Shown in pieces: positions 6,550 to 15,449 of a stretch of DNA of 64,000 nt. Each line of letters begins with the position of its first letter. Positions within the stretch are counted from its first letter, which is position 1. A model generated the notes under the pieces. That model did not search any database and was not told the origin of the DNA. It saw nothing but the letters and a program-made list of their open reading frames with translations. Both the position numbers and the translations under genes were made by a program. This DNA comes from Desulfovibrio sp. TomC (GTDB lineage: Bacteria > Desulfobacterota > Desulfovibrionia > Desulfovibrionales > Desulfovibrionaceae). The DNA lies in assembly GCF_000801335.2 (NCBI RefSeq), contig NZ_JSEH01000003.1, positions 186,001-250,000 of the forward strand, written 5' to 3'.

Positions 6550-7329
6550 CTAGGCCACCGGGATCGTGCCGCCGTCGATGACATACTCCGTGCCGGTGAT
6601 GGCCGCTGCCCGGGGCGAGGCCAGAAACGCGATGAGATTTGCCACCTCAAGGGGTTTTGCCGGGCGGCCAAGGGGAATGCCGCCCAGGGCATCCATGATG
6701 ATCCGCTGGCCGCCTGCATAGTCGCTGCCGGCCTTCGCGGCCAGCCTTTCGGCCAGGGCCACGGCCGCTTCCGTTTCGACCCAGCCGGGTGAGACGCGCA
6801 CGACCCGGATGCCTTTGGGGGAAACCTCCTTGGACAGGCTTTTGCTGTACGTTGACAGCGCCGCCTTGGCCGCTGCATAGGCCGTCGTGGAGTCCGGGAG
6901 CGGGAGACGATCCTGAATCGAGGTGACGTGGATGACGACGCCGGAACCCTGGGCCAGCATCCCGGGCAGCAGGGCGCGATCCAGGCGCACGGCGGGAAAC
7001 AGGTTGAGGGACAGTTCCCTGTGCCAGGCCGCCTCGTCCAGGGCGGCAAAACCGCCGGCCGGGGCGCTGGACCCGCCCAACACGTGAATGATGCTGTCCA
7101 CGCCGCCAAGCCGGTTGCCAACCGCCCGGGCAACCGCGGCACAGCCGTCAAGGGTGGTCAGGTCTGCGGCCACAAAGGCGTCATCCGGCAGATCTTCCGG
7201 TTGTGTGCGGGCCACAGCCAGCACGCGGGCTCCGTAGTGGCGAAAGAGCCCGGCCACAGCGCCGCCAATACCCTTGGTCCCGGCCGTCACCAGGACGCGC
7301 TGGCCCGCAAGTTCAAGATTCATGGACAT
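6550..7329 (-). CDS. Short-chain dehydrogenase/reductase
   Basis: A 259-aa NAD(P)-dependent oxidoreductase of the classical SDR family. The nucleotide-binding motif appears as VTAGTKGIG (TGxxxGxG variant) near residue 14, the structural NAG-like strand as HVLGGSSAP, the catalytic Ser in HVTSIQD, and the catalytic Tyr/Lys in [11 protein letters not shown] (YxxxK). The C-terminal [16 protein letters not shown] is the usual SDR end. ATG at 7329 follows GGAGATCAAGCC. It is divergent from an HxlR regulator with 106 bp between the starts, the arrangement expected when the regulator controls the enzyme. Substrate unknown. Confidence 0.92.
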
Positions 7330-7435
7330 GGCTTGATCTCCAATCGGGTACCTTCTTTGTTGAAAACGACTGGCGGCCAAACTATGCCCAGGCTCGCAAC
7401 CCTGCAAGAACGCACCGAAAAGTGAGGGACTTCCC
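7330..7435. promoter_or_regulatory. Divergent control region SDR / HxlR
   Basis: The 106-bp interval must carry both promoters and probably the HxlR operator. A GGTACC palindrome (7348-7353) lies in the middle; this is a weak operator guess. No clear -35/-10 pair could be assigned. Confidence 0.35.
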
Positions 7436-7780
7436 ATGAGGAAAGCCTATACGCCCGAAACAGCGGCGGCGGATGTGGAAAAAACCCTGCAGGTGCTTGA
7501 GGGACGCTGGAAGTTGATTATTCTATTCCACTTGTTTGGTGGAAAAATCCAGCGTTACAGCGAGTTAGAGCGGCTCATTCCAGGTGTTTCCCCCAAGATG
7601 CTGGCCCAGCAATTGCGGCAGTTGGAGGCCGACGGCCTGATCTCCCGAAAACTGTATCCGCAAGTGCCTCCCAAGGTGGAGTACCGCCTGACGGCGTGGG
7701 GGCAGGCCCTGTGCCCGGCCCTGGATGCCCTGTTGCAATGGGCGGAGAAACGGCCTGAGGCCGGTGCCCCTCGGGAATAA
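7436..7780 (+). CDS. HxlR family transcriptional regulator
   Basis: A 114-aa winged-helix DNA-binding protein of the HxlR family. The family core is clear: [16 protein letters not shown] (helix with conserved WxxxIL), [25 protein letters not shown] (recognition helix region) and the wing [20 protein letters not shown], followed by G-x-x-L-x-x-x-L. HxlR proteins bind DNA as dimers and often respond to electrophiles or aldehydes. It has no N-terminal Cys of the redox-sensing type, so the inducer is open. Start follows GTGAGGGACTTCCC. It diverges from the SDR gene it probably regulates. Confidence 0.93.
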
Positions 7781-7851
7781 ACGGGGCTCCCGGGCGGTTG
7801 TCGCAGGCTGCCCTCGCCGGCGACAGCCGCTTAAAAGCCAAGGCCTGTGGC

Positions 7852-7953
7852 GATGCGGAGCCTGGCCGTTGCCCCGACGCCACGCCGCCCTCTGTACGCA
7901 AGAGCCTCTCGCACCGTGTCCGGATGCGGAGCCTGCCCCGACGCCACGCCGCC
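7852..7953. repeat. Short imperfect direct repeat
   Basis: Two copies of about 31-38 bp, starting GATGCGGAGCCTG at 7852 and 7923 and ending CCCCGACGCCACGCCGCC, repeat with a 71-bp period. The second copy lacks 7 bp (GCCGTTG) present in the first. They sit in the 223-bp tail between the HxlR gene and the chemotaxis receptor; no gene is seen here. Confidence 0.6.
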
Positions 7954-8003
7954 TGCCCGGCTGCAGTCCAGACCGGGGGCCGATGGGCCGGCCGGCCCGG
8001 TTC

Positions 8004-9881
8004 CTAGACCAGGGCCTTTGGCTTGCTGCCGCCCCGGCCTTCGGCTTCCAGTTCTTCCATGAGCGCGGCCAGTTCCTGGGATTGCCGGGCCAATTCGGCC
8101 ACGGTCCGGGAGGCCTCGGCCATGGCCCGGGCATTGGATTCGGAGATGGCGCTGACCGCGTCCACAGCCCGGTTGATCTCGTCGCTGGTGGCCGATTGTT
8201 CCTCGGCGGCCGTGGCGATGGAGCGCACCTGATCCGAGGCGTTTTCCACCAACCCCACGATCTGGGCCAGGGCTTCGCCGGCCTGGGCCGCCAGGGCGTT
8301 TGCCCGGGTGACCGCCCCGGCTGCGGCGTCCACGTTGCCCACATTGCGACTGGCCCCGGCCTGGATGCCCCGGATGGCGTCGCCCACTTCCTTGGTGGCG
8401 GTCATGGTTTTTTCGGCCAGCTTTCGCACCTCATCGGCCACGACGGCAAAGCCCCGGCCGGCGTCCCCGGCCCGGGCCGCCTCGATGGCGGCGTTTAAGG
8501 CCAGCAGATTGGTCTGGTCGGCGATGTCGGAAATGACGTTCATGACCGCGCCGATGTCCTGGGCCTGGCGGCCAAGCGTGTCCATGTCCGCCTTGAGTCC
8601 CGTGGCCTGTTCTTGGACCATGCCAATGGCCGTCACCACCTGGGTCACCACTTCGGCCCCTTCCACGGCCTTGGCTTTGGCCGCGTCGGTGGTGCCGGCG
8701 GCGTTGGAAGCGTTTTTGGCCACTTCAAGGACGGTGGCGTTCATCTCTTCCATGGCCGTGGCCGTCTCGGTCATGCGCCGGGACTGATCCTCGGCTCCCT
8801 GGCTCGACTCGGCGATGCGGTCCGACAGTTCCGCCGAGGCCGTTCCCACCACGGCCACCACCCCGCCCAGGCGATCCGCTGCCTGGATCAGGCCTTCGGC
8901 CTTGGCCCGTTCGGCCTTCTGGGTGGCTTCCTCGGCCAGCCGGGTGGCTGCGACAGCGGCCTGGGCCTTGTCTTCGGCCTCGGCTGTCTTGGCCGTAATG
9001 TCGTCCATGTTGGTGCGCAGGGTGGCCACCATGGTATTGAGCGCCGCCTGCATCCGGGCGGCTTCGTCGTTGCCGACGGCGTCCAGGCGCACGGACAGGT
9101 CGCCGGCGGCGCAGAGCATGGCCGCCTCGGTGGTCTGCCGGATGGGGCGGGTCACCGAGACCATGATCACAGCGCAGACCCCGATCAGAACAACCAGTCC
9201 CACGGCCACGCTGCCGACGATGGTGGTCAGGGCCGAGTTGATGCGGGCCTCGTTGTCGGCCCGGATGGCGGCCTTGGCCCGGTCCACGTTGTCGATATAG
9301 ATGCCGGTGCCAATCCACAGGTCCGTGCCCGGAATCATGGCGGCGTAGGCCAGCTTGGGCTGGTCGCCCTGGCCGGGCTTGGGGAAGATATACTCGATAA
9401 AGCCGCCGCCGGCCTTGGCTTTCTGGTGGAGTTCCCGCACGAAGTACACGTTGTTTTTGTCTTTGAGATCTCCCAGGTCCTTGCCCTGGTTGGCCTTGTT
9501 GGGCGGCAGGGCGACGTTGACCGTGTCCTTGTAGACAAAGAAGTAGCCGGATTTGTCGTCTTCAAAGCGGAAGGTGTCCACCATGGCCCGGATGGTTTCC
9601 AGGCGTTTTTCGGCTGACGTCTCGGTTTTGATGGCCGCAGCGATGGCCTCGGCCATGGCATTGGAGGCCACGGCGAGTTTGAGGCGCTCTCCGTCAAGCA
9701 TGAGCGTCTGGGCCGATTGCACCGTATGCTCTTCCAACCGATGCAGTTCCGTGGAAAAGGCCAGGACCATGCCGGCAGCAAACGCCGTGAACAGGACCAA
9801 CAGAAGAACGAAGCGCCAGGACAGGGAAAAACGTCGCAGGAGAGCAAGGACAACGCCGGAACCGGATGCAGTCGCAGTCAC
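8004..9881 (-). CDS. Methyl-accepting chemotaxis protein with Cache domain
   Basis: A 625-aa transmembrane chemoreceptor that passes ligand signals to CheA/CheW. Order: a membrane helix at about 19-41, a periplasmic Cache-type sensor (about 45-205, with the single-Cache block [11 protein letters not shown] and [20 protein letters not shown]), second helix at about 212-235, HAMP, then the cytoplasmic signalling domain with methylation helices and the hairpin tip [21 protein letters not shown]. There is no CheR-docking pentapeptide at the C-terminus. GTG at 9881 follows GGAGGTATCCC. Its ligand is unknown; this Cache type often binds small organic acids. It stands alone, with its own promoter. 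Confidence 0.94.
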
Positions 9882-9936
9882 GGGATACCTCCGCCAACAG
9901 GTTGCAGGCCAGGGGACTTTTGCGGGAATTAACCAA

Positions 9937-9965
9937 ATAGTAAAATATTATCCAAAGGCAATCAA
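9937..9965 (-). promoter_or_regulatory. Sigma-70-type promoter of the chemoreceptor gene
   Basis: On the minus strand TTGATT (9960-9965) and TACTAT (9937-9942) are 17 bp apart, in a locally AT-rich stretch 56 bp upstream of the GTG start. This is one of the best consensus-like promoters in the window. Confidence 0.6.
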
Positions 9966-10035
9966 CAGGGATGCGAAAATACTTGCAGCGTCCGGTGGTT
10001 GGCGTTGAATGTGGTTTGGGCTGTTATGCAGGCCC

Positions 10036-10169
10036 AAAAAGCAGCCCCCGCCGGGGGAGGCGGGGGCTTTTGAAGGAGGGAGGAGAGAATCGGTACTTTG
10101 TCGGCCCCGGATGGTGCTTCCGGGAGCAGACTTGGCGACGGTGGGGCTTGAGGGGAAGCCTCTTCCGTC
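10036..10169 (-). ncRNA. Candidate C-rich small RNA, tandem unit 1
   Basis: Predicted transcript of about 134 nt. From 5' to 3' on the minus strand it has a hairpin GGCTT-CCCCTC-AAGCC (10145-10160), a single-stranded CTCTCCTCCCTCCTT tract (10073-10087), and a terminator with 9-bp stem GCCCCCGCC / GGCGGGGGC (10044-10067) followed by T5 (10036-10040). The C-rich loop and tract are complementary to Shine-Dalgarno sequences. It shares layout, loop sequence and promoter box with two neighbours, while stems differ. No protein gene fits the tract. Start is estimated from the -10-like box at 10176-10181. Confidence 0.55.
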
Positions 10170-10175
10170 ACTGTA

Positions 10176-10204
10176 CAGATAAGACCCGATTATGAAACGG
10201 GCAT
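10176..10204 (-). promoter_or_regulatory. Shared promoter-like box, unit 1
   Basis: Read on the minus strand: ATGCCCG, TTTCA, CGGG, then TATCTG as a -10-like hexamer 11 bp after TTTCA. CCCG and CGGG form an inverted repeat. The same box recurs at 10389-10417 and 10632-10660. There is no TTGACA-like -35, so an activator or alternative sigma factor is implied. Confidence 0.45.
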
Positions 10205-10236
10205 GGATGGCGCATGAACTTTGCGCTGGAGTCGGC

Positions 10237-10382
10237 AAAACAAAATCCCCGCCGGGGAGCGGGGATTTTGTTTTCGAGGAGGGAGGAGAGATTGTCTGGG
10301 CCGCTTGCGGGAGGGGGACCGCTTCGGGCTTTGGGTTATACGTTGCCAAGGGCGGGCGGCTGAGGGGGAACCGCCTTTCGTT
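10237..10382 (-). ncRNA. Candidate C-rich small RNA, tandem unit 2
   Basis: Predicted transcript of about 146 nt. It has two C-loop hairpins, GGCGG / CCGCC around TTCCCCCTCAG (10355-10375) and GCGG / CCGC around TCCCCCTC (10307-10322), then CTCTCCTCCCTCCTC, then a perfect 16-bp terminator stem (10237-10252 with 10259-10274) ending in a TTTTGTTTT tract. The terminator loop is the same TCCCCG as in units 1 and 3, although the stems differ in sequence. Confidence 0.55.
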
Positions 10383-10388
10383 GGGGAG

Positions 10389-10417
10389 AATGTAAAGCCG
10401 GCCCATGAAACGGCGAT
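10389..10417 (-). promoter_or_regulatory. Shared promoter-like box, unit 2
   Basis: Minus strand: ATCGCCG, TTTCA, CCGGC, then TACATT at 10389-10394, with the same 11-bp spacing from TTTCA as in the other units. The inverted repeat is here GCCG / CGGC, a paired change relative to units 1 and 3. Confidence 0.45.
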
Positions 10418-10465
10418 GGCGGCTGCATGAATTCTGGTTAGGAATTGTTTTTTGCGCTGCTCCCT

Positions 10466-10625
10466 AAAAAGGAAGCCCTCGCCGGGGAGCGAGGGCTTCG
10501 TCAAGGAGGGGGAGAGCGTCCTTGGGACCGCCTGGGGATGGGAGGGGCCATCTGATCCGGCGAAACAAGGCAGAGGGTTCGTTTTGTGTGTCTTTTGGTC
10601 CGAACGGGCCGTTGCCTCATTCGTT
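10466..10625 (-). ncRNA. Candidate C-rich small RNA, tandem unit 3
   Basis: Predicted transcript of about 160 nt. It has the hairpin GATGG-CCCCTC-CATC type (10537-10552, loop identical to unit 1), a C-rich tract CTCCCCCTCCTT (10504-10515), and an 11-bp terminator stem GAAGCCCTCGC / GCGAGGGCTTC (10472-10499) followed by T5 (10466-10470). On the plus strand the same hairpin is not followed by T residues, which fixes the likely direction of transcription as minus. Confidence 0.55.
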
Positions 10626-10631
10626 GGTTAC

Positions 10632-10660
10632 TCTATAGGACCCGGAGGTGAAGCGGGAAT
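10632..10660 (-). promoter_or_regulatory. Shared promoter-like box, unit 3
   Basis: Minus strand: ATTCCCG, CTTCA, CCGGG, then TATAGA at 10632-10637, 11 bp after CTTCA. It lies just after the end of the upstream histidine-kinase gene. Confidence 0.45.
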
Positions 10661-10681
10661 GTCCACAAAATGAACGAAAAT

Positions 10682-12061
10682 TTAATTTTTGGCCCGGCCG
10701 GCCGGGAAGGCCAGGGTGACCCGCAGGCCCGGGACATTGTCGGACAGGCGAAGTTCGGCCTGATGCAGTCCGGCCGCCGCCGCCACCAGCGACAGCCCAA
10801 GCCCGCTGCCCGGCGTATTGCGGCTTGATTCCAGGCGGGTGAAGCGTTCCAGCACCAGTTCGCGGTGCTCGGCCGGGATGCCGGGACCGGTGTCGGCCAC
10901 CGAGAGTTCCGCTCCGGTCGGGCTGGCCTTGAGGGTCAGGCTCACCGTGCCGCCGGCCGGGGTATATTTGACGGCGTTGTCGAGGAGATTGGCCAGGGCC
11001 TGGGAGAGCAGATGGCGGTTGCCGGGCACGGTGACCCCGGGGTCCAGGGCCAGGGCGAAGGCCAAGCCCGCTTCCTCGGCCACCGGCTCGTAGAGTTCGC
11101 CGGCGTCGGCGGCCAGCTGGGTCAGGTCGATGTCGGTGAAATCCTGGCGGCGCGCCCCGGATTCGGCCTGGGCGATGGTGAGCAGGGCATTGAAGGTCTG
11201 CAGCAGCCCGTCAATCTCGGCAATGGTGTGTTCCAGGACCTCGCGGTAGCCCTCGGGACTCTGGTTGCCGGTCAAGGACATCTCCAGGCCCGAGCGGATG
11301 CGGTTTAAGGGGCCGCGCAGGTCGTGGGCGATGTTGTTCGATACCTGTTTGACGCCTTCCATAAGCCGGCTGATCTGGTCGAGCATGGCGTTTAAGTTCT
11401 CGGCCAGCCGGTCGAATTCGTCGCCGGCCCCCCGGGTGGGGATGCGCCGGCTTAAGTCGCCGTTCATGATCTCGCGGCTGGCCTTGGTGATGACGTCAAT
11501 GCGCTTGAGCATCCAGCGGCTGGTCAGCACGCCGCCGGCCCCGCTCAGGACAACGGTCAGGAGCAGGCCCCAGAACAGGGAATCGATAATAAGCCGCTCC
11601 ACCTTGACCCGCTCGGACACGTCGCGTCCGACCACCAGATGAAAATTGCCCGGCAACAGGAAATAGCGCATCCGCACCCGGCGCGGCTCGTAATTTTCCG
11701 TATCCTCCAGGGTGGCGTCAAACCAGCCCGAGCCGGTGTCCTTGAATTTGGGCCATTCGGGCAGGTTGCCGGCCAGGGGATTGAATTTCCAGTCGGTGAG
11801 CAGATAGACGCTCGATCCGGCCTTGTCCTTGGCCACCCGCGATTTGATGACCCGGATGAGGCCGGTCAGGCCCAGCTGGCTGTATTGCTCGGCCAGGCCC
11901 TGGATCTCGGCGTTGATCGTCTCGTCGGTCTGGCGTTCCATGAAGCCGGCCGTGGAGGTGTAAATAAACCACAACAGCACCAGCACCGACAGGCCGAAGG
12001 CGGCCATGTGCAGGATGGACAGGCGAAGGGTGGAGGAGCGCAGGAGTTTAGTTGGGATCAC
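10682..12061 (-). CDS. Sensor histidine kinase (OmpR-partner type)
   Basis: A 459-aa membrane sensor kinase. Two membrane helices (about 15-37 and 148-170) flank a periplasmic sensor of about 110 residues that resembles no named domain by eye. HAMP follows, then HisKA with the phospho-His in NNIAHDLRGPLNR, then the HATPase domain with N box LANLLDNAVKY, G1 DTGPGIP and G2 GSGLGLSL. The start overlaps the end of the response-regulator gene by 14 bp, so the pair is translationally coupled and cognate. The trigger is unknown. The tandem small-RNA candidates lie directly downstream. Confidence 0.93.
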   Translation of the reverse strand: MIPTKLLRSSTLRLSILHMAAFGLSVLVLLWFIYTSTAGFMERQTDETINAEIQGLAEQYSQLGLTGLIRVIKSRVAKDKAGSSVYLLTDWKFNPLAGNLPEWPKFKDTGSGWFDATLEDTENYEPRRVRMRYFLLPGNFHLVVGRDVSERVKVERLIIDSLFWGLLLTVVLSGAGGVLTSRWMLKRIDVITKASREIMNGDLSRRIPTRGAGDEFDRLAENLNAMLDQISRLMEGVKQVSNNIAHDLRGPLNRIRSGLEMSLTGNQSPEGYREVLEHTIAEIDGLLQTFNALLTIAQAESGARRQDFTDIDLTQLAADAGELYEPVAEEAGLAFALALDPGVTVPGNRHLLSQALANLLDNAVKYTPAGGTVSLTLKASPTGAELSVADTGPGIPAEHRELVLERFTRLESSRNTPGSGLGLSLVAAAAGLHQAELRLSDNVPGLRVTLAFPAGRAKN

Positions 12062-12725
12062 GCAGACTGTACCCGGCGCCGCGAATGGTGGAGAGCAGGG
12101 GCTTGTCGTGGCCCTTGTCGATCTTGTGCCGCAGGCGGCTTATGTGGACGTCGATGACGTTGGTCTGGGGGTCAAAGGAATAGTCCCAGACGTTTTCGAG
12201 CAACATGGTGCGGGTGACCACATGGCCGGCATGGCGCATGAGGTATTCCAGCAGGGAAAATTCCTTGGGCTTGAGTTCGATGGCCTGGCCGGCCCGGCGC
12301 ACCGAGCGCCCCACCAGGTCCATTTCCAGATCAGCCACCTTGAGGATGGTGTCCGGGGCGTCGGAGCGCCCCCGGCGCAGGAGCGCCTCCAGCCGGGCCA
12401 GCAGTTCGGCAAAGGCGTAGGGCTTGACCAGATAATCGTCGCCCCCGGCCTTGAGGCCCTTGACCCGGTCGTCCACGTCGCCCAGGGCCGAGAGGATGAG
12501 CACCGGGGTCTGGTTGCCGGCCGAGCGCATGGTTTTGACAATGGTCAGGCCGTCAACGCCGGGCAGCATCCGGTCCACCACCACGGCGTCGTAGGTTTCG
12601 GCCGCCACCCGGTACAGGGCCTCGCGTCCGTCGGCCACATGGTCCACCACATAGCCGGATTCCTTGAGGCCTTTGACCATGTAGGCAGCAGCGTCCAGGT
12701 CGTCTTCAACAATGAGCACTCGCAT
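12048..12725 (-). CDS. OmpR/PhoB-type response regulator
   Basis: A 225-aa two-domain regulator. Receiver 1-115: acidic pair in LIVEDD, phospho-acceptor Asp in AVVVDRMLPGVDG, and Lys in LVKPYAFAEL. The winged-helix DNA-binding domain (about 128-222) has LTPKEF-like LKPKEFSLLEYLM, then NVIDVHISRLRHKID and IRGAGYSL. ATG at 12725 follows GGAGTCCGCT; the longer opening upstream lacks support. It is followed with overlap by its cognate kinase and preceded by a hybrid kinase gene 47 bp away on the same strand. Confidence 0.95.
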   Translation of the reverse strand: MRVLIVEDDLDAAAYMVKGLKESGYVVDHVADGREALYRVAAETYDAVVVDRMLPGVDGLTIVKTMRSAGNQTPVLILSALGDVDDRVKGLKAGGDDYLVKPYAFAELLARLEALLRRGRSDAPDTILKVADLEMDLVGRSVRRAGQAIELKPKEFSLLEYLMRHAGHVVTRTMLLENVWDYSFDPQTNVIDVHISRLRHKIDKGHDKPLLSTIRGAGYSLRDPN

Positions 12726-12772
12726 AGCGGACTCCTTGGCGGACAGCGGCCAGGGCCGGTCCGTCGGGCTGG

Positions 12773-15253
12773 TCATCTGGCGGCAATACGCTCCAGGGCC
12801 GCATCGAGTTCGTTCATGTCGATGGGTTTGGGCACATAGTCGTCAAAGCCGGCTTCGAGCATTTGTTCGCGGTAGCCTTTGATGGCATGGGCGGTCAGGG
12901 CGATCACTGCCGTTTGGGCAGCCTCGCCGAAGGTCTCGACATTGCGCAGACGGCGCAACGTTTCCGGGCCGCTTAACCCCGGCATCTCGACATCCATGAG
13001 GACGCAGTGAAAAGGCGTCGTGGACAGCAGATCCAGGGCGGCCTGGCCGGAGTCGACGGCGGTGACCGTATGGCCGCGCCGTTCGAGCAACCGTTTGGCC
13101 ACAAGCTGGTTGATGAGGTTGTCCTCCACCAGCAAAATGGACATCGGCGTCGTCGTTTTCGTGCCCAGCGACTTGGCCGGCGTCTTCTGGGCCGGAGCCG
13201 GCTGGGCGGGGGGAATTTCAAACACAGCGGTAAAAAAGAAGGTGCTGCCCAGGTCGGGTTCGGATTCGACCCAGAGGCGTCCGCCCATGAGGTTGACGAG
13301 ATTGCTGCTGATGGACAGCCCAAGGCCGGTGCCGCCGGCTCCGCGGTTGAGGCTGGCGTCGAGTTGGGTGAAATATTCAAAGATTCGCGCGTGTTTCTCG
13401 CGGGGGATGCCGATGCCGTCGTCGGCTACGGAAAAAAGCAGGGTCATCGACGGGGTTTTGGGGTCGGACACGGGGCAGTGAATGGCCGGAGCCGGTTGGA
13501 CGAGTACCCGCACCGTCCCGTTCTTGGTAAATTTGAGTCCGTTGGAAACAAGGTTGGCTACGATCTGGGCCAGCCGCCCGGGGTCGCCGATAAGGATCTC
13601 GGGGACGTCCGGGGATACGACAACTTCCAGGGTGTTGTCGTGGCGGGCGGCCAGGCCGCTATAGAGCCGCGCGCACACGCCCATGGTGTCGCGCAGGGCA
13701 AATTGGGTGCGTCCAAGCTCCATGCGCCCGGCTTCTATCCGCGAAAAGTCAAGGATGTCATTGATGATTTCCAGCAGGTTGACGGCGGACTGGCGGGCCA
13801 GATCGAGGTAGTCGCGCTGTTCCGGAGTCAGCTCAGTGCTCATGGCCAGTTCGATCATGCCCATGATGCCGTTCATGGGGGTGCGGATTTCGTGGCTCAT
13901 GGTGGCCAGGAACTGGGATTTGGTGCGGTTGGCGGTTTCCGCCGCCTCCATGGCCCGGGTGAGGCGCTCGCGGGTGCGCATAAGCTCGGTCACATCGACC
14001 ATGGCCTCGATGATGCTGGTCGTGCCGGGCAGGCGCCGGGCAGTCTTGTACATGATCCGTTCGCCGTTTAAGGTCTTTATGGCGCATTCCCGTTCGCGCA
14101 CGATGCCTGAGGCGGCGGCCACGACCGGGCAGGAGTCCTTGTTGCAGAGATAGTCCTTGCAGGACGCTCCCCGGGCCTTGGGACCAAAGAGGCGTTCGGC
14201 CGCCGGATTCTGGTATTCGAGGATGCGGTCGCCGTTTTCGGCCAGCCGCACCTTGACGATGGGGATGGGGGCGCTGTCCAGCACCATGTCCAGGTCGCGT
14301 CGGCTCTGGACGCTCTCGGTGACGTCGAGGACCAGTCCCTGGACGGCGGCGACCTGGCCGGCGGCATCGCGGGTGAACTGGATGCGGTTGGTCACGTGGC
14401 GGGTCTGGCCGCTTTGGGTCAGGAGGCGGTAGTCCAGGGCAAAGGCGTCGCGGCCGGAGGCGGCGTATTCGCCCATGGTCGTCTCGACCCGCTGCCGGTC
14501 GTCGGGGTGGATCAGATTCTTGGGGGAAAGAGCTCCGGAGAGCAGGGCCTCGCGGGAAAAGCCGAACCGCGTGATGTTTGACGAGACAAAGGACACCGGT
14601 CCGGGTTCGCCGTCGATGACGGGATAGCGGATGAGATAGGCCGGGCTGGCCTCCAGGATGAGGCTGGCCTGACGCATGGCGTCGTCTGCTTCACAGCGGG
14701 TGGTGACGTCGGTAGCCATCATGCGAAGGGTCGTTTCTGTTTGGCCCTGGCCGGGATCGGACCACGGCTCGACCGTCAACTCGGCGCTCAAACGGCTGCC
14801 GTCACGCCGGGTCAGGCGTACTTCCAAGGTCTGGGGCCGGCCGGTTTCCTGGGTACGACGCAAAGCGGTATGAAAGGCCGCCTGATCCGAGCGGGCCACG
14901 CGCACCACAAAGGGTTTGCCAAGCAGCTCGTTTCGGGGAATGCCGAGCATGGTCGAACCCTTGAGGTTGGCCGCGAGGATCACGCCCCGCAGGTCCAGCG
15001 TGAAGTAGCCGGCCGGGGCGAAATCGAAGAGATTGGCATACCGGTCGCGGGTCTCGGCCAGTTCGGCCTGGGTGCGGCGCAATTCGTCGTTTTGCAGTTC
15101 CAGCTCGATCTGGTTGACCCGGAGTTCATGGATGATCCGGGCCAAGTCCGCGACAGACAACTGTCCCAGTTCCTCCTCTGGCGACTGGGCGATCAGGGAT
15201 TCGGCCTTACGGCGCAGGGCGGTGGTCGGCGCATCGGGTGCGGGATCTTTCAT
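12773..15253 (-). CDS. Hybrid PAS histidine kinase with receiver domain
   Basis: An 826-aa soluble hybrid kinase. A helical N-terminus (about 15-75) leads to PAS 1 ([13 protein letters not shown]), PAS 2 (about 200-310) and a third PAS (about 315-430) that contains a cysteine-rich stretch, [11 protein letters not shown]. HisKA follows with [18 protein letters not shown], then HATPase with [12 protein letters not shown] and GTGLGLSIS, and a C-terminal receiver with LVEDNLINQ, Asp in [10 protein letters not shown] and VPKPI. No membrane segments are seen, so it senses internally. ATG at 15253 follows GGAAGTCCGACA; TTG at 15325 is the alternative. It lies upstream of an OmpR-type pair and may feed into it. 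Confidence 0.93.
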
Positions 15254-15449
15254 TGTCGGACTTCCAGGGCCGGACGAGGGCCGGGAACTCCCCGGCGAAC
15301 CATACTTGCCCAGGCTATATGACAACAGGCGCAGCTTGGAAAGGGGGGCGGGCCGGCCCGGGTCGCGGCGGGATCGGATGGAAGGCAGGATGGCGACGCC
15401 GGTCGCGGCGTCAGGACTGGCGGCAGCGAGCGGTTTCTTTTTGGGCGCA

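Follow-up and report, generated by a model that had tools for sequence, protein, structure and literature searches.

Three tandem C-rich small RNAs predicted downstream of a two-component system in Solidesulfovibrio, and a proposed change of cargo behind their promoter box

The window analysed here, a stretch of 64,000 nt from Desulfovibrio sp. TomC (contig NZ_JSEH01000003.1, positions 186,001 to 250,000), contains a tandem array that probably represents three sibling small RNA (sRNA) genes, each with its own predicted activator-dependent promoter and terminator, which the neighbouring two-component system would switch on and which would repress translation in the manner of anti-Shine–Dalgarno (anti-SD) RNAs. 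The array is conserved in almost all of the Solidesulfovibrio genomes searched, and its promoter box recurs behind the same sensor kinase gene in other genera, in three of which it precedes degP/htrA. The link to the histidine kinase (HK) and response regulator (RR), together with this exchange of degP and sRNA cargo, are the main points that go beyond a preliminary description of this DNA. The most unusual feature of the system is that the cargo differs while the box in front of it stays conserved.

Organisation of the locus

A gap of approximately 800 bp separates the HK gene (12061–10682, minus strand) from a chemotaxis-receptor gene (9881–8004, minus strand), and is occupied by three minus-strand units. 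Each of these has a box at its 5′ side, followed by a predicted RNA of approximately 135–165 nt that is C-rich, folds into hairpins, contains a pyrimidine tract and closes with an intrinsic terminator. The features of the locus are as follows, with all sRNA 5′ ends being predicted.

12048–12776, minus strand: OmpR/PhoB-family response regulator gene; Pfam receiver (Response_reg) and Trans_reg_C domains
10682–12061, minus strand: sensor histidine kinase gene; HAMP, HisKA and HATPase_c domains; directly upstream of the array
10632–10674, minus strand: promoter box of unit 1; TTCAT-N8-CAT-N8-CA at 11 bp spacing, then TATAGA
10465–10628, minus strand: predicted sRNA 1; loop CCCCUC at 10547–10542, C-rich tract CUCUCCCCCUCCUU at 10516–10503
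10472–10499, minus strand: intrinsic terminator of sRNA 1; stem of 12 pairs, loop CCCC
10389–10431, minus strand: promoter box of unit 2; TTCAT/CAT/CAT repeat, then TACATT
10233–10385, minus strand: predicted sRNA 2; C-rich loops within 10370–10362 and 10318–10309, tract UCUCUCCUCCCUCCUC at 10291–10276
10240–10271, minus strand: intrinsic terminator of sRNA 2; stem of 14 pairs, loop CCCC
10176–10218, minus strand: promoter box of unit 3; TTCAT/CAT/CAT repeat, then TATCTG
10036–10172, minus strand: predicted sRNA 3; loop CCCCUC, tract UUCUCUCCUCCCUCCUUC at 10089–10072
10043–10068, minus strand: intrinsic terminator of sRNA 3; stem of 10 pairs, loop UCCCCC

The preliminary description had proposed three tandem minus-strand units with C-rich hairpin loops, a pyrimidine tract and strong intrinsic terminators, and all of these are present, the RNAs running from approximately 10628 to 10465, 10385 to 10233 and 10172 to 10036. 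Its span of 10036–10660 is too short, as box 1 begins at 10674. Within the family, no element is better conserved than the tract of sRNA 3. Box 1 starts 8 bp past the stop codon of the HK gene, and the units are codirectional with the operon. The chemotaxis receptor (methyl-accepting chemotaxis protein, MCP; 8004–9881, minus strand) has matches to dCache_2/sCache_2; in the stretch fetched for each locus, its gene was found behind the array for only six of the 12 relatives, whilst the array is present in all 12, and it therefore seemingly lies outside the conserved module.

With regard to the two-component system, a domain search of the regulator returned Response_reg and Trans_reg_C alone, and no AAA+ sigma-54 activator domain; its best NCBIfam model is cztR_silR_copR, at a score below the cut-off of that model. 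In a collection of named genomes, an HK search placed the close relatives of the window's genome in Solidesulfovibrio, within which the HK is 83–95 % identical. We propose that the regulator encoded with this HK would be the activator of the three predicted sRNAs. Further upstream (12773–15325, minus strand), an 850-aa ORF, which by eye resembles a hybrid histidine kinase with a PAS domain, overlaps the RR gene at its start. Several relatives display a receiver-like match (31–37 % to the RR) upstream of the regulator gene, so that the operon may comprise three signalling genes. One HK match (G001:C5:42482–43858) contains a single in-frame TGA. Relatives of the HK at 38–39 % over nearly the full length occur in unclassified proteobacterial metagenome-assembled genomes (L047–L049), and the flanks fetched for these, which form part of the null loci for the weight matrix described below, contain no strong box.

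Conservation within Solidesulfovibrio

A DNA search of 59 genomes, comprising the window's own and 58 relatives, located the array in 12 of 13 other genomes of the genus, i.e. in 13 of 14 Solidesulfovibrio genomes when the window's own is counted. The one genome without it (G002) is 69 % complete and lacks an HK match as well. In all 13 array-bearing genomes there are three units and the array is directly behind the HK gene; the flanks have diverged, and boxes, tracts, loops and terminators are retained. The TCTCCTCCCTCCTT of unit 3 is found in 12 of the 13 copies in the genus. The 16-mer TCTCCTCCCTCCTTGA has 13 occurrences in 288 genomes of the family, each at an array or sRNA locus behind the HK gene (once each in 10 of 14 Solidesulfovibrio genomes and in all three genomes of a second genus, g53), compared with one match in one genome for its backward control. 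Unit 3 of the window itself ends in TTCA, and hence is outside these 13 occurrences. A 35 nt match in a different genus (L016; G018:C33:18866–18900; E-value 0.0019) covers sequence surrounding the terminator of unit 2, and may be a terminator that simply looks similar.

Structure of the predicted RNAs

Minimum free energy z-scores for the three RNAs, relative to shuffled sequences, are −3.6, −3.5 and −5.3. At least four T residues are found within 9 nt 3′ of the terminator stem in 31 of 39 units (13 genomes), compared with one of 39 on the opposite strand, which fixes the strand of the units and is in keeping with the strong terminators originally described. For 42 units, these being the 39 of the genus and three of g53, per-sequence ensembles reveal, in every unit, a lower average pairing for the pyrimidine tracts than for C as a whole, with a mean unpaired value of 0.76 for tracts against 0.51 for C in general. 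A few single tracts are, however, mostly paired. The unpaired tract of the preliminary description therefore holds by comparison with C generally, but not for each individual tract.

The motifs themselves are enriched, with CCTCC occurring 105 times in the 42 units (mean 45.9, maximum 62, in 300 first-order shuffles) and CCCCTC 66 times (mean 21.2, maximum 35). The complement of the former, GGAGG, occurs three times versus 6.6 in shuffles, and is thus not enriched. In g53 the terminator loop is less C-rich.

Alignments of 13 sequences per unit were assessed for covariation. Pairs changed on both sides number 5, 6 and 5 in units 1–3, respectively, counts that are reached by 1, 0 and 0 of 500 column shuffles, which ignore kinship among the genomes, and that omit two small RNAalifold helices of four pairs (unit 1) and three pairs (unit 3). 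Covariation scores (0.184, 0.265 and 0.226) exceed those of every slid control. Further pair types show no excess for units 1 and 2, where 353 and 500 of 500 shuffles reach the count, and a small excess for unit 3 (12 of 500). The signal comes mostly from the terminators and the first loop-bearing hairpins, and the alignment of unit 2 is poor in its middle hairpins. Paired stem changes, as claimed at the outset, are consequently borne out by three of the four measures used, for which column shuffles and slid controls served as the reference, and the homologous loci examined keep both their conserved loops and their paired stem changes. A model of the 3′ ends of all 39 units (R2) was left unused: the stems of unit 3 were wrongly aligned by MAFFT, and the terminator stem is missing from the 7 pairs that RNAalifold predicted.

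No start-to-stop frame (ATG, GTG or TTG starts, at least 10 codons) is common to all units. Such frames are found in 8 of 13 copies of unit 1 (five being the same 16-codon ATG frame), in 4 of 13 copies of unit 3, where they are mutually unlike, and in none of the 13 copies of unit 2 or the three g53 units. With no frame conserved across the copies, the units were rejected as coding genes.

The same motifs could in principle serve as a sponge, in which repeated CCCCUC/CCUCC sites titrate a C- or CU-binding protein by the logic of CsrB/RsmZ, although with the opposite motif. Repeated loop motifs on changing stems, in three tandem copies next to a two-component system, do resemble the GacA–Rsm RNAs, an analogy that is also drawn for LhrC (PMC4132741). 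However, the most conserved element of the array is not a loop but a single-stranded tract with full complementarity to sequences of the SD type, and GGA-type motifs are rare on the minus strand, as the three GGAGG in 42 units illustrate. This alternative is therefore considered unlikely, and the titration of a C-binding protein, offered in the preliminary description, has gained no specific evidence and is not supported.

The promoter box

All 39 units of the 13 genomes contain a direct triple repeat at exactly 11 and 22 bp, with no misfit. Its words are TTCAT, followed by CAT (35 units), AAT (3) or AAG (1), and then by CA(T/C); approximately 10 bp past the last repeat, the TA of the −10 element is invariant in 39 of 39 units. 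As boxes were located via TTCAT, with CAT/CA at the expected offsets deciding among several TTCATs, the repeat words were used in finding them, and only the gapless spacing and the TA of the −10 element count as independent evidence. Direct repeats of 11 bp that end approximately 10 bp before the −10 element are the geometry of PhoB-type (OmpR/PhoB) activation. An inverted repeat, CCCG..CGGG, had previously been taken as the promoter signature; it is absent from most relatives, the triple 11 bp direct repeat being conserved instead. A sigma-70 scan found no consensus −35/−10 promoter in 9500–11200, and this absence is consistent with activator-dependent promoters.

A promoter-model search, which scores part of its candidates only, gave three strong matches in each of the 11 genus genomes with matches, and all 33 are within the array. 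For the three genomes of g53 it gave no match, although their boxes are found with a weight matrix. The window's own genome has 13 weak matches to the model (E-values of 0.008–3), the best of which is inside an open frame, as are the weak fourth matches of G008, G005 and G010. Outside the genus, single weak matches (E-values of 1.8e-4 to 5.3e-4) are present at L272 (G247), L273 (G038) and L274 (G036).

Related genera and a proposed change of cargo

Matches to the HK at an E-value ≤ 1e-80 were obtained in 29 of 288 family genomes, representing eight of 44 genera, two of which (g6 and g55) group with paralogues in the tree; an HK search of named genomes returned few orthologues of the family. 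In all three genomes of g53 the HK gene is followed by one box and one predicted sRNA, which ends in TTTTCTCCTCCCTCCTTGA and a terminator. A box followed by degP/htrA is instead found behind the HK gene in five of six HK-matching genomes of g10, in both of g11 and in one of two of g16, the second g16 genome being a contig-edge fragment that was left out. The degP/htrA gene behind the box scores above the cut-off of TIGR02037 in 8 of 8 loci. DegP homologues of the Solidesulfovibrio and g53 genomes tested are located elsewhere and have no box upstream (best weight-matrix score −15.0).

The weight matrix behind these assignments was built from the 39 Solidesulfovibrio boxes only. It scores the g53 boxes at 25.5, 26.9 and 32.0, and those of the degP loci at 9.9, 7.6, 3.9, 3.5, 3.5, −3.0, −3.4 and −11.1, against null maxima of −3.0 among 139 window blocks and 1.0 among 1168 blocks of other loci. 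Accordingly, five of the eight degP boxes exceed every null block, whilst three (−3.0, −3.4 and −11.1) fail to outscore the best of these blocks. When the letters of each region were shuffled, the scores of boxed loci were reached by 0–3 of 300 shuffles, compared with 68–268 of 300 for four boxless loci. In every boxed genus, the box and −10 element are oriented toward the sRNAs or degP.

No box was found behind the HK gene in g17, g6 and g55 (one genome each), or in G206 of g10, where the HK match ends at residue 405. The recognition-helix stretch NVIDVH(I/V)SRLR of the regulator is kept in every box-bearing genus and is different in all four paralogue or outgroup loci compared; it is also retained in boxless g17 (G029). 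The locus of this last genome (L159) has an orthologous HK/RR pair, and no box, sRNA or degP within the first 1000 nt behind the HK gene. That G029 keeps the HK/RR pair and the helix stretch without any of these counts against the explanation favoured herein.

In a FastTree phylogeny of the HK, g10 (degP) is outermost, followed by g17 and then by g11 and g16 (degP), which are sister to g53 and Solidesulfovibrio (sRNA). This suggests that degP may have been the ancestral cargo and was replaced by sRNAs, since on this one tree of six genera the shortest history is an ancestral degP with a single gain of an sRNA that was later tripled. More tentatively, and with the balance falling slightly against it, the box of an envelope-stress two-component system could have been kept through a swap of cargo from the periplasmic protease/chaperone DegP to anti-SD sRNAs (one copy in one genus and three in Solidesulfovibrio), which would shut off the synthesis of exported proteins in a proteobacterium lacking Hfq.

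These loci also bear on who regulates the array. Another protein that binds TTCAT repeats could be the regulator of the sRNAs, with the adjacency of the HK/RR genes being coincidental, and the retention of the RR in G029, with no box behind the HK gene, is what such a reading would have in its favour. Nevertheless, the box tracks the HK gene through five genera and two unrelated cargos, and direct repeats of 11 bp suit an OmpR-type RR, making coincidence quite improbable. The units might alternatively be 3′-UTR or attenuator elements with no function in trans, i.e. tandem terminators and processing hairpins that halt read-through from the HK gene into the MCP gene. The start of box 1 so close to the HK stop codon, and the shared direction of units and operon, are as this would have it; yet every unit has a box of its own, tract and loops are conserved beyond what termination needs, and the array persists in the six of 12 relatives where no MCP gene was found within the fetched stretch, such that we hold this to be very improbable. 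Finally, that the functional RNA is the plus strand, with GGA-rich loops binding CsrA (tract reverse complements read AAGGAGGGAGGAG) and the minus-strand picture as its mirror, is scarcely credible, as T tails mark the minus-type strand in 31 units and the other in one, and in none of the boxed genera do box and −10 element point away from the sRNAs or degP.

Proposed mechanism and a candidate target

The reading preferred here, of sibling sRNAs controlled by their neighbouring two-component system, builds on what was observed directly: the anatomy and conservation of the array, its covariation, tracts that are less paired than C in general, the recurrence of the box in other genera, and an Hfq gene that went undetected. 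From these a sequence of five steps can be envisaged. A signal would first activate the HK; in E. coli, degP is under CpxR control, and as relatives place degP behind the same box, this signal would most probably be stress of the envelope or periplasm. The phosphorylated OmpR-type regulator would then bind the three 11 bp-spaced direct repeats, which would substitute for a −35 element, as motif geometry, synteny and cross-genus conservation suggest. Three RNAs of approximately 135–165 nt would be made, to judge from promoter box and terminator. The single-stranded CUCUCCUCCCUCC-type tract of each, aided by the CCCCUC hairpin loops and the terminator loop, would pair with purine-rich SD sequences and block translation, probably independently of Hfq. 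No Hfq gene was detected in the window's own genome, which is 99.95 % complete, by a search whose control was positive in 5 of 14 known genomes, including E. coli. Lastly, the likely targets would be abundant exported proteins, a class III cytochrome c being the sole conserved candidate found.

This class III (c3-like) cytochrome c gene is at L217:1039–1503 (minus strand; C1:11050–11514 of the window's own genome). Its ribosome-binding site (RBS), AAGGAGGGAG, is kept in all 13 Solidesulfovibrio genomes examined (G002 being left out), and displays perfect complementarity to the unit 3 tract over 10 nt (10 genomes) or 12 nt (three genomes). The corresponding site is CAAGGAGGAG in g53, and AAGGAGGAG in g6 and g43, whose genomes are without the tract, a point against the target reading. 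Computed duplex energies for the three tracts with the cytochrome RBS are −19.8 to −23.7 kcal/mol, compared with −10.3 to −11.8 kcal/mol for the same tracts with an invented generic SD site, and with −13.5 kcal/mol for the cytochrome site and a 16S 3′ end, which is a shorter sequence. The cytochrome was chosen post hoc from a pattern search with 21 matches in four genomes, one of these matches being the array itself, and five for the backward control. Its mRNA is thus a candidate target of the predicted sRNAs; complementarity to SD-like sequences is unspecific, which counts against the target reading.

Comparison with known systems

CiaR is an OmpR-type response regulator, and Rfam includes models of both csRNA and LhrC. 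The csRNAs of Streptococcus are several similar, CiaR-dependent sRNAs with direct repeats (TTTAAG-N5-TTTAAG) and RBS-complementary sequences; two are in tandem in S. sanguinis, and CiaR controls 15 promoters in S. pneumoniae (PMC8186281). Comparable to what is described there, direct repeats of 11 bp period are predicted from sequence at the promoters of the array, where all 39 units have three repeats. There are also clear differences: csRNAs are Gram-positive and no sequence relation to them was found, the Solidesulfovibrio sRNAs adjoin the two-component genes, the box has three repeats, and, at the sensitivity used, it is found only at the three sRNAs, whereas CiaR, by that account, also serves other promoters. 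In Listeria, LhrC1–5 are multicopy, LisRK-dependent and induced by envelope stress, and act on the SD region of lapB with no need for Hfq (PMC4132741). Multiple copies, a two-component system and three seed places are shared with this system as reported. LhrC copies are nearly identical, 111–114 nt in length and carry a UCCC motif (PMC4132741), whereas the array consists of three diverged copies with GC-rich stems and a tract of 14–18 nt. Neither csRNA nor LhrC homology was found, with no Rfam match at cut-off in the window stretch and 15 related loci.

The cuckoo, alpha-r14 NfeR1 and CcsR1–4 RNAs of Alphaproteobacteria form families of hairpins in which anti-SD motifs are conserved although the stems diverge, and the four CcsR RNAs are processed from one precursor, together with a DUF1127 gene, from an RpoHI/HII promoter (PMC10746234, PMC10253847). 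The array likewise keeps anti-SD motifs on differing stems. Unlike the RNAs so described, exact CCUCCUCCC is present in just 2 of 42 units, each of the 39 units has its own predicted box and terminator, and the flanking genes are those of the HK and MCP. The window scores 21.6 bits against the Rfam family ar14 (RF02344; cut-off 58.8) and 23.7 bits against suhB/mmgR (RF00519; cut-off 41). Membership of the cuckoo/alpha-r14/CcsR group was accordingly rejected, as neither CCUCCUCCC identity, nor an Rfam match, nor a layout of one precursor with one promoter is seen. The tandem family of C-rich, anti-SD type that had been suggested is conserved, and would be analogous, not homologous, to the CcsR/cuckoo RNAs.

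Closer to the present organism, the Desulfovibrio vulgaris regulators DVU0679 and DVU0653 target ncRNAs just downstream (Dv_sRNA2), and are listed among sigma-54-dependent regulators with GAFTGA-type motifs (PMC3333781, PMC4641369). Here, too, a Desulfovibrio-type bacterium has a candidate ncRNA target just behind the regulator's own operon genes; the array differs from that system, as those sources present it, in its OmpR-type regulator, its three RNAs, its anti-SD tracts and the alternative degP cargo.

Novelty and biological meaning

An Rfam search of window positions 7000–14000 gave five sub-threshold matches and none at gathering score, and there were no gathering-level matches in 15 related loci; plasmid and phage collections likewise contained no match. 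In the literature collection searched, no publication was found that joins Solidesulfovibrio and small RNAs, nor any title or abstract describing this sRNA family in the literature on Desulfovibrio and sulfate-reducer sRNAs, two-component sRNAs, cuckoo RNAs or degP and envelope stress. As no tested Rfam family matches at cut-off, the predicted sRNAs would be a new family, set apart from Dv_sRNA2 by description, not by sequence comparison. The design as such, with several related sRNAs, a two-component regulator and SD-complementary seeds, is already known from csRNAs and LhrC as these are described.

The best-described sibling sRNAs that are C-rich, block SD sequences and respond to two-component systems are those of Firmicutes. 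A separate, predicted occurrence among sulfate reducers, with the regulator encoded alongside and Hfq undetected, suggests that this design evolves repeatedly. The orthologous loci, furthermore, offer a rare view of how a regulator may exchange a protein-coding target for an RNA one with its binding site kept. If the swap of cargo is real, then the same signal would be answered in Solidesulfovibrio by ceasing to make exported proteins (class III cytochromes, for example), and not by degrading them.
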